This document shows, piece after piece, positions 37,436 to 40,022 of a stretch of 59,955 bases of DNA (its first letter is position 1; every line of letters starts with the position of its first letter). The notes under the pieces are model-generated. The model saw only the letters and a program-made list of their open reading frames with translations, did no database searches and was not told the DNA's origin. The stretch is from Bifiguratus adelaidae (lineage: Eukaryota > Mucoromycota > Endogonomycetes > Endogonales). The DNA lies in the NCBI GenBank assembly GCA_002261195.1, contig MVBO01000090.1, forward strand, positions 1 through 59,955. Reading direction: 5' to 3'. The translations under genes were made by a program, and so were the position numbers.

Positions 37436-38344
37436 ATGCCGCCCAAGAGAAAGTCCACGGACGAGGTTACCACCCCGCTGCGCAGGTCGGCGCGGAGTTC
37501 GACGGCCAGCAAGACGGAGGCTGCACCAGCGGCGCCGAAGCGAAAGCCGAGTACGAAAAAGAAGGAAAACGGGTCTGCACAGAATGGAGCTGCCACCACA
37601 GAGGTCGCAGCCGGACATCCAGCTCAAGCTCTTGATTCTACGGAGAACAAGGAAGATAGTGCCTTGGCACCGGGCCAAGTTCCAGCCAGCGCCGATACTG
37701 CTGCTCTTGTCGGTAATGGCGGCACCGCCTCTGCACCCACAGATACGACCCCCACTGTCACCGATATTGCCCCGGATGTCGCGGCTGAACCCAAGGCGAA
37801 GAAGGTTAAACTTTCGGGAGAATCAGCTGTTCCACACGCTATGGGAGCATCTCATGGAGCTTTGCCTACCGAAATCTCTGGTGGCACTGCTGTTCCACCT
37901 GGTGTGGGCGGCGTAGGCATCGAATCGGATGAGAAGAATGAGCTCGGTGCTGGTAAGACAGGTGAAGCGGCCAAGGTCGTAGGTGGCGCCGCGCTTGACG
38001 GCGAGAACGCGCAGGGTGAGGGTGCGCACGTCAGCATCGAGCAAGCGTAAGTGCTGATCTAATCAACGGTCTGAATGGGGCACAACTCAGGCAGAACTTT
38101 TAGGAATACCTGAGGTACCTACCGGTCCAACGCCAACAAAGTAGCCGCCGCAATCAAGAAAGCATATCCGCTTGTGAAGGTGACCATCAACGACACGAAG
38201 CCACGTCGGGATAGTTTCGAGATCACAGTGTCAAAAAATGGCGACAGCAAGTGCGTTTGGACAGGTCTCAAAAAAGGACCTCCGAGAAAACTCAAGTTTG
38301 TCCAACCGGACGAAGCGGTTAGACTCGTTGGTTCAGCCTTGTAA
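37436..38344 (+). CDS. Candidate selenoprotein H (Rdx family) with in-frame TGA as selenocysteine
   Basis: Two exons, 37436-38046 and 38104-38344, 283 residues if TGA at 38111-38113 is read as selenocysteine. The first exon has a basic start (MPPKRKSTDEVTTPLRRSAR) and a long low-complexity A/G/T-rich stretch. The thioredoxin-like domain starts HVSIEQA at the exon end and continues NT-Sec-GTYRSNANKVAAAI. It goes on with INDTKPRRDSFEITV and ends with VWTGLKKGPPRKLKF, the hallmark of selenoprotein H. Aligned with animal SelH (IEHCTSU-RVY), the TGA falls exactly on Sec, while the partner cysteine of CxxU is alanine here. The intron (57 nt, GTAAGT...TTTTAG) is the only one tried that keeps the downstream frame, and it leaves TGA inside exon 2. 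A SECIS follows. SelH is a nuclear/nucleolar redox protein. Confidence 0.8.
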
Positions 38345-38430
38345 AGTCCTAGTTTTGTTTTGATTCATACTTGCGCTTTACTTCTCGCGCGCTTGTTATA
38401 TACGTATCGTATTCCGTCTTGTTTGGTCGT

Positions 38431-38495
38431 TTATCCAGCTGATGACGGTAACGCCTAAAATTGGCTTCACCAAAGGGCCTTATCCTGAAAAATGG
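38431..38495 (+). promoter_or_regulatory. Type II SECIS element
   Basis: In the 3' region, 98 nt after the first quartet-side reference point following stop 38344, the RNA can form the eukaryotic SECIS core. The quartet is ATGA at 38442-38445 with TGA at 38486-38488. Helix II pairs 38447-38456 with 38475-38484 (GGTAA-C-GCCT with GGGC-C-TTATC, one C-C mismatch, wobbles allowed). The apical AAAA is at 38457-38460. A 4-bp mini-helix TTGG/CCAA (38461-38464 with 38470-38473, loop CTTCA) makes it type II. A short lower helix TCCA/TGGA lies outside the quartet. The 11-12 nt spacing between quartet and apical adenines is right for a SECIS. It would recruit SBP2 and EFSec. Confidence 0.78.
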
Positions 38496-38618
38496 AGCAT
38501 TGGATCATAAAACCTTGCAAATAAAACGAGACGACAGCGAGAATATCTCACCCACAACAAAGTGGTTTTTACTTTTGGTGTATAGGATACAGGAAACATG
38601 GGTCTAGGTCTAATCCAT

Positions 38619-40022
38619 CTAGGCGTGTTGCGATTTAAGCTCTTTTTGACTGTCCGCTAGCCACGTCTTAAGCTTTTCTACTTGCGTCATCACGTTCTGT
38701 CGGCTCGTTCCACCGGGCGTGGTGCGGTTCTCTACGCTTCGCTCAGGATTCCAAATGGAGGTGACATCAGGTTCAAAGGCGGCGTGCAACGTTTTGAGAT
38801 CCTCGACCGACAAGTCTGCCATACTGCATTGTCGATCCTCAGCGAGCTTGACGGCAGCACCGGCAATGTGGTGGGTTTCCCGGAACGGAACACCTTTTCG
38901 GACCAGATATTCGGCAAGATCGGTCGCCAGCATATCCGGGGTGAGTGCCGCGCGCATCTTTTCGGCATTGATGGAAAGGGTAGACAAGACACCTGTCGTG
39001 ATTTGCAAGCAGCCAGAGATGGTGGTGACGGCATCAAAGAGAGGCTCCTTGTCTTCTTGGAGATCCTTGTTATAGGTGGAAGGAACGCCCTTGTAGGTCA
39101 TCATGAAACCAGCCATGTCACCAAAGACACGTCCGCTCTTGCCACGCAAAAGTTCCAAACTGTCGGGATTCTTCTTCTGTGGCATGAGCGATGAGCCTGT
39201 ACTGTAAGCATCAGCGAGCTTGACAAAGCCGAATTCGGCGGTGGAATAGATGATGAGATCCTCGGCGAAACGAGATACGTGAGACATGGTGAGGGAGGTC
39301 CAGAATAGAAACTCGGCGACAAAGTCTCGGTCAGATACAGCCGAGAGCGAGTTGGGTATAATGTCCGAGAAGCCAAGTTGCTGAGCAAGGTACTCTCGAT
39401 CTAGAGTGAAGGGATTACCGGCAAGCGCACCGCAGCCCAAGGGCAAGACATTCAATCGCTCCAAATATTGTTCTAAGCGGATAGCGTCGTTTTGCCAAGA
39501 GAGCGCGTACGATAGCAACAGATGCGACCACCGAATTGGTTGTGCGCGTTGCAGGTGGGTATAACCAGGCATGAGAACGTCCACCTCATTCTCGGCGCGC
39601 TTTACGCACACGGCTATAAGCTCCTTGAGAATGGCCGAGATCTTGGAGACCTCCTCCCGAGTCCACATCCGCATGTCAGTCGCCACTTGATCATTTCGAC
39701 TTCTGCCCGTATGAAGTTTGCCAGCAACACTTCCTACAAGCTCACCAAGTCGGCGCTCGTTGGCCGTATGAATATCCTCATCTCCAGGTGCCAGTTTGAA
39801 CGTCTTGTTCGCCCATTCTTGCTGCACCTTGCCTAGGCCGTCCACCAGCGTATCGGCTTCCTCCTGAGTAATGATACCAGCTTTCGCGAGCGCTTTTGCA
39901 TAAGCCATCGATCCGATGCAGTCAGCATCATACATTTTGCAATCGTAAGAGATGGAGGCGTTGAACTCCTCCATGAGAGGATCTGTTTTGCCCGTGAAAC
40001 GGCCTCCCCAGAGTCGAGACAT
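38619..40022 (-). CDS. ARG4: Argininosuccinate lyase
   Basis: Single exon, 467 residues, the standard length. It opens [20 protein letters not shown], has [17 protein letters not shown] (written [17 protein letters not shown]), [20 protein letters not shown] with the catalytic histidine, and the superfamily signature [16 protein letters not shown] with the catalytic serine loop. The enzyme splits argininosuccinate into arginine and fumarate, the last step of arginine synthesis and part of the urea cycle. Its 3' end converges with the selenoprotein H gene; the SECIS lies in the 274-base gap. A Gcn4-like site is 140 bases upstream. Confidence 0.97.

Follow-up and report, generated by a model that had tools for sequence, protein, structure and literature searches.

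The stretch of DNA analysed here (59,955 nt, hereafter the window) contains a frame resembling selenoprotein H (SelH) that is interrupted by a TGA codon, which raises the question of whether this codon is read as selenocysteine (Sec). We propose that 37436-38344 is very probably the SelH gene of an early-branching fungus, in which a UGA would be read as Sec under the direction of a SECIS, SBP2 and eEFSec, giving a protein of 283 residues. The gene comprises the following features.

37436..38046, + strand: SelH exon 1, encoding a low-complexity N-terminal region of about 200 residues with a basic start and VSIEQ at its end (from the reading frame)
38047..38103, + strand: predicted SelH intron of 57 nt, GTAAGT...TTTTAG (from intron enumeration)
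38104..38344, + strand: SelH exon 2, encoding the remaining SelW/T/H domain with WTGLKKGPPRKLKF (from TIGR02174 and alignment with animal SelH)
38111..38113, + strand: putative selenocysteine codon, an in-frame TGA at residue 207 of 283 (from the frame and alignment)
38342-38344, + strand: SelH stop codon TAA

Once the two exons (37436-38046 and 38104-38344) are joined, the frame runs for 283 codons up to TAA with the TGA at 38111-38113 as its sole internal stop, at residue 207, which bears out the interrupted frame described previously. We enumerated introns of 35-250 nt with donors at 37700-38139 that leave the frame either stop-free or with TGA as its only stop. This gave 146 combinations: 60 with GT donors, which were inspected, and 86 with GC donors. 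If the GTAAGT donor is used and IEQ...GTYRSN is kept, two acceptors are possible (38094 and 38103) and the TGA stays in both cases, the acceptor at 38094 preserving the frame and replacing IEQANT-TGA by IEQATFRNT-TGA.

The same enumeration bears on the possibility that the TGA is intronic, i.e. that another splice form yields an ordinary protein without Sec. Two other genes of this genome indeed carry an in-frame TGA inside an intron and were rejected as selenoprotein genes: the second Rdx gene (C273, L007), which reads IEYCTGCRWMMRA and encodes a cysteine-containing SelW-like protein (Rdx, 59.9 bits), and a GPx gene (C228, L034), which reads NVASKCGLTPQY and encodes a cysteine enzyme. At the SelH locus itself, open frames also result when any of several upstream donors is paired with the acceptor CCTGAG at 38114, and the 86 GC-donor combinations lie outside the inspected set. 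However, every TGA-free GT-AG form among the 60 inspected loses VSIEQ, or GTYRSN and more, so that none keeps the conserved block, while the exact spacing of SelH results, TGA included, from a donor (GTAAGT) and an acceptor (TTTTAG) of good quality. An intronic TGA is therefore very unlikely, and the 60 GT-donor forms support the earlier claim that the 38047-38103 intron keeps the C-terminal SelH block only if the TGA is translated.

Assignment to the SelH family rests on the C-terminal domain, which passes the NCBIfam model TIGR02174 (SelT/SelW/SelH) with 46.1 bits (cut-off 34.2) and narrowly misses Pfam Rdx (22.0 bits, cut-off 22.6). The gene was absent from the matches of a genome-wide search with the Rdx profile, and no solved structure matched it at E up to 10. 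A protein search with the domain returned six proteins from seven candidates, at 45-60% identity; four have a source name, all animal, two of these being called selenoprotein H, and none of the six is named as fungal. With the full-length protein, none of 25 candidates had an E of at most 1. The block WTGLKKGPPRK.KF is invariant in all seven aligned sequences, and the SelH-type pattern WTG.KKGPPRKLKF was found.

The alignment also places the TGA on the selenocysteine site of SelH, as had been proposed. Homologues P0001, P0002 and P0003 start 3, 1 and 2 residues past the Sec/TGA position, respectively, as would be expected from gene models cut at a TGA, and in P0005 the segment VVIEHC aligns with VSIEQA of the fungal protein. 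The reading of this TGA as the SelH selenocysteine codon is thus well supported. Within the CxxU motif, the U position is present and the cysteine is replaced by alanine (AxxU), confirming the earlier observation on the partner cysteine; C254 is the only cysteine in the whole protein. Because the CxxU cysteine is replaced, it is by the domain and the block, and not by the motif, that we class the protein with SelH, as a homologue whose site is variant; it may act as a lone-Sec redox protein. The N-terminus has a basic start and contains PKRK twice. The translation was inspected for RKRK and for RGRP, which is the core of the AT-hook, and neither was seen.

Loss of the Sec-decoding machinery is commonly assumed for the majority of fungi. 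We regard the machinery of the whole genome as the deciding test for the TGA reading; the assembly searched comprises 18,628,366 bases in 286 contigs. A tRNA-Sec with the anticodon TCA was found at C23:39599-39685 (67.1 bits, cut-off 47); a second tRNA-Sec match (C284, 34.6 bits) was rejected as an ordinary tRNA-Leu. SepSecS is represented on C31 by four pieces above the cut-off (E 1.4e-73 with 3bc8) and eEFSec on C249 by matches that include the third and fourth eukaryotic domains (E 4.5e-64 with 5izk). SPS on C2 (three pieces; E 7.7e-37 with SEPHS1) and PSTK on C146 (two pieces; frame with GLPGAGKTT and LLVDDNMYYRSM) were matched by pieces that are each under the NCBIfam cut-off, which is as expected for single exons and is no proof. 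The SBP2 candidate on C233 is one of eight L7Ae matches in the genome: with its halves joined across an intron, it matches human SBP2 with an E of 1.4e-16, compared to 0.37 for the next best, a ribosomal L7Ae. The preliminary description had held that the absence of tRNA-Sec and eEFSec would speak against Sec; this absence is refuted, and SBP2, SecS, PSTK and SPS2 were all matched as well.

At the SBP2-like locus (L027 1501-3019; C233 from about 43107, + strand), the second L7Ae half runs into ankyrin repeats. The open frame spans 480 residues, Pfam giving Ank_2 at 4.3e-27 and not listing the L7Ae half there. A literature search for SBP2, ankyrin and SECIS in combination found no related paper, as judged by title.

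As a check for contamination, we compared GC contents: the eight machinery or TGA-gene loci and the two cysteine-gene loci range from 0.466 to 0.496, and the window stands at 0.486. Convergent with the SelH gene lies an argininosuccinate lyase gene in one open frame (window 38619-40022, minus strand), the product of which, after its own copy, is nearest to that of Umbelopsis vinacea (77% identity) among the best 120 of 7947 passing sequences (8000 scored); none of these 120 bears the name Bifiguratus adelaidae. Judged by this protein, the neighbouring lyase places the window with Mucoromycota.

In three further genes of the genome (SPS2, GPx and PRXL2/SelU-like), a TGA occupies the position that holds selenocysteine or the catalytic cysteine in the respective family.

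Contig C2, L013 2227-2229: TGA of SPS2, LSGLKG-TGA-GCK, where SEPHS1 has threonine at the same position
Contig C2, L013 3688-3749: SECIS-like element after the SPS2 stop, with an extra hairpin on the 3' side
Contig C33, L035 2109-2111, minus strand: TGA of GPx, NVASK-TGA-GLTPLNY, with an intron GTAGGT...TGTAG directly before the TGA
Contig C226, L043 2552-2554, minus strand: TGA of the PRXL2/SelU-like gene, RRPG-TGA-QFCREEA

In a GPX4-like chain, the residue aligned with the GPx TGA is the active-site cysteine, and the SelU-like TGA aligns with a cysteine of prostamide/PGF synthase (E 5.1e-9); the structure search with the SelU-like protein listed 17 chains, two of prostamide/PGF synthase and 15 weak antibody matches. 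The 3' end of the SelU-like gene is uncertain because its stop lies in AGGTAAGC, a possible splice donor. A GCUG-type end was seen in none of the frames inspected for four Pyr_redox_dim genes, part of each locus being covered. MsrA genes are located on C112 and C214.

Were the SelH TGA a true stop or a sequencing error, the locus would be a broken copy or would encode a short protein of 206 residues. The frame as first read would end at 206, and Sec at this TGA is a prediction from the DNA; however, the domain is conserved past the TGA up to the TAA, the TGA falls exactly on the Sec site just as those of the three other genes fall on theirs, and the genome has retained the Sec machinery. We consider a true stop or an error extremely improbable.

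Reading the TGA as Sec calls attention to the RNA downstream of the stop, where the preliminary description had placed a type II SECIS.

38434..38496, + strand: SECIS-like hairpin with basal stem (from a sub-cut-off match to Rfam RF00031, folds and scans)

This hairpin lies about 97 nt past the UAA, and the element sits in the gap between the SelH gene and the argininosuccinate lyase gene. Its core consists of ATGA (38442-38445), 11 nt, AAAA (from 38457) and TGA (38486-38488), with a mini-helix UUGG/CCAA, a basal stem UCCA/UGGA and a main helix of 9 bp. The description thus stands as regards the quartet, the 11 nt to the apical adenines and the mini-helix, all shared with the type II SECIS model RF00031 (SECIS_1), which aligns end to end (positions 1-64 of 64) at 38432-38498. 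By contrast, the covariance score is below the curated level (18.4 bits, gathering score 35), and the main helix has one C-C mismatch. With 4227 families run against 341 nt, the E of this match is 0.59, or about 1.4e-4 for a single family (by division). The failure of a covariance search to find a SECIS, named in the preliminary description as a refuting outcome, is thus not what was observed, although the match stays under the curated score.

No Rfam family reached its gathering score anywhere in the window. A genome-wide RF00031 search at E up to 10 did not return the SelH element; its sole match, on C34 with 20.7 bits, is located upstream of a gene resembling short-chain dehydrogenases and was taken as chance. 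The minimum-energy fold contains the SelH element, with a stability that is unremarkable compared to shuffles (z -0.20 and -0.44). A structural scan of both strands of the window found 10 SECIS-like elements, that of SelH included (0.025 per 300 nt), and a scan of other loci found 13 in 124,100 bases, that of SPS2 included; the scan rules were set after the SelH and SPS2 elements had been seen, and the rate is therefore a guide and no test.

A motif common to the TGA genes was then defined as ATGAC-N10-12-AAA, a choice made after the elements had been seen. It occurs within 350 nt past the stop in 4/4 TGA genes (twice for GPx) and in 0/7 control genes (cysteine GPx, glutathione reductase, lipoamide dehydrogenase, a related reductase, MsrA, argininosuccinate lyase and SepSecS), against a background of 12 matches in 262,530 bases, SelH among them, i.e. 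0.016 per 350 nt. Under a constrained fold, the main helix measures 9 bp for SelH and 10 bp for both SPS2 and SelU, whereas eight of the 11 other background matches form no helix and three form helices of 6, 6 and 8 bp. For GPx, the first element forms no helix and the second one of 5 bp; a looser rule gives the first a helix of 6 bp, with a background of 0.055 per 300 nt.

These comparisons are relevant to a further possibility, which overlaps with our preferred explanation: Sec may be inserted at the UGA under the direction of some other RNA element, the hairpin at 38434-38496 matching by chance. The sub-cut-off Rfam score and average fold energy of the SelH hairpin agree with this, as do the GPx element devoid of a proper helix and the outcome of Rfam at E up to 10, which found no SECIS downstream of SPS2, GPx or SelU, nor of the cysteine GPx control, and hence recovers a SECIS in one of the four TGA genes (SelH, sub-cut-off). 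Moreover, Mariotti et al. 2019 reportedly described most fungal selenoproteins as being without a consensus SECIS. Against a chance match stand the distribution of the motif between TGA genes and controls and the helix lengths given above, which make it unlikely, and the hairpin is probably the element directing Sec insertion.

We therefore return to the reading of the SelH UGA as Sec by way of this hairpin. The gene structure, the TGA position, the SECIS-like element, the core machinery matches and the three other TGA genes can all be read from the DNA itself, and decoding of the UGA would follow this scheme. Splicing of the single 57-nt intron would produce an mRNA in which the Sec position of the thioredoxin-like SelH domain is occupied by a UGA; SBP2 would bind the SECIS hairpin downstream of the UAA and recruit eEFSec carrying Sec-tRNA-Sec; and UGA 207 would be read as Sec, yielding the 283-residue protein. 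The product would presumably act in redox reactions through a selenol that does without its customary CxxU partner: lacking a neighbouring cysteine, the Sec intermediate would be resolved via glutathione, a partner protein or C254.

Compared to animal SELENOH, the fungal protein has the same SelW/T/H domain, Sec column, WTGLKKGPPRKLKF block and basic start, and its gene likewise has a SECIS-like element past the stop. It differs by its AxxU site, where the animal protein has CxxU, and by the RGRP AT-hook core, which was not seen in the fungal sequence. The animal protein is also described as a 14-kDa protein, in contrast to the N-terminal region of about 200 residues found here, and as having an AT-hook or RKRK nuclear motif in its N-terminus (PMC10650576, in excerpt). 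A literature search combining selenoprotein H, CXXU and AT-hook found no paper.

Sec in early-branching fungi had already been reported by Mariotti et al. 2019, according to excerpts of three later papers (PMC12611240, PMC7988114, PMC11378755), which bears out the remark in the preliminary description that a few such fungi have selenoproteins. Nine Sec species are mentioned, Bifiguratus adelaidae being among those named (PMC7988114), seven of the nine being Harpellales (PMC10386755). As excerpted, PMC12611240 states that Harpellales share the machinery genes and SelenoH, with RNA-seq expression in Zancudomyces. The present gene resembles theirs, as described there, in being a fungal SelenoH accompanied by Sec machinery, and differs in that Harpellales belong to another phylum, the window being grouped with Mucoromycota. 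The excerpts also hold contrary statements: PMC8559351 has fungi without selenocysteine, and PMC7988114 argues against fungal Sec on the grounds that U is missing from annotated proteomes. We suggest that gene finders stopping at TGA would account for this absence. Because Sec in early-branching fungi is published and the organism is probably among the species concerned, our finding falls within a known phenomenon. Bifiguratus adelaidae, one of the nine species and a member of Mucoromycota, is the likely owner of the window, and if it is, the SelH gene may well be included in Mariotti et al. 2019 already.

What the analysis provides is one fungal genome in which the whole core machinery is matched and four genes have a TGA at the expected site, which fits the account that later papers give of Mariotti et al. 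2019. Two features are less usual and depart from the animal Sec system: the AxxU site of SelH and the fusion of SBP2 to ankyrin repeats. Tentatively, and with rather less than even confidence, we suggest that Sec decoding may persist in this fungal lineage in a remodelled form, in which a lone-selenol AxxU SelH, with no resolving cysteine next to Sec, would go together with an SBP2 whose SECIS-binding L7Ae domain is fused in frame to ankyrin repeats, so that recognition of the SECIS might be linked to a partner protein.
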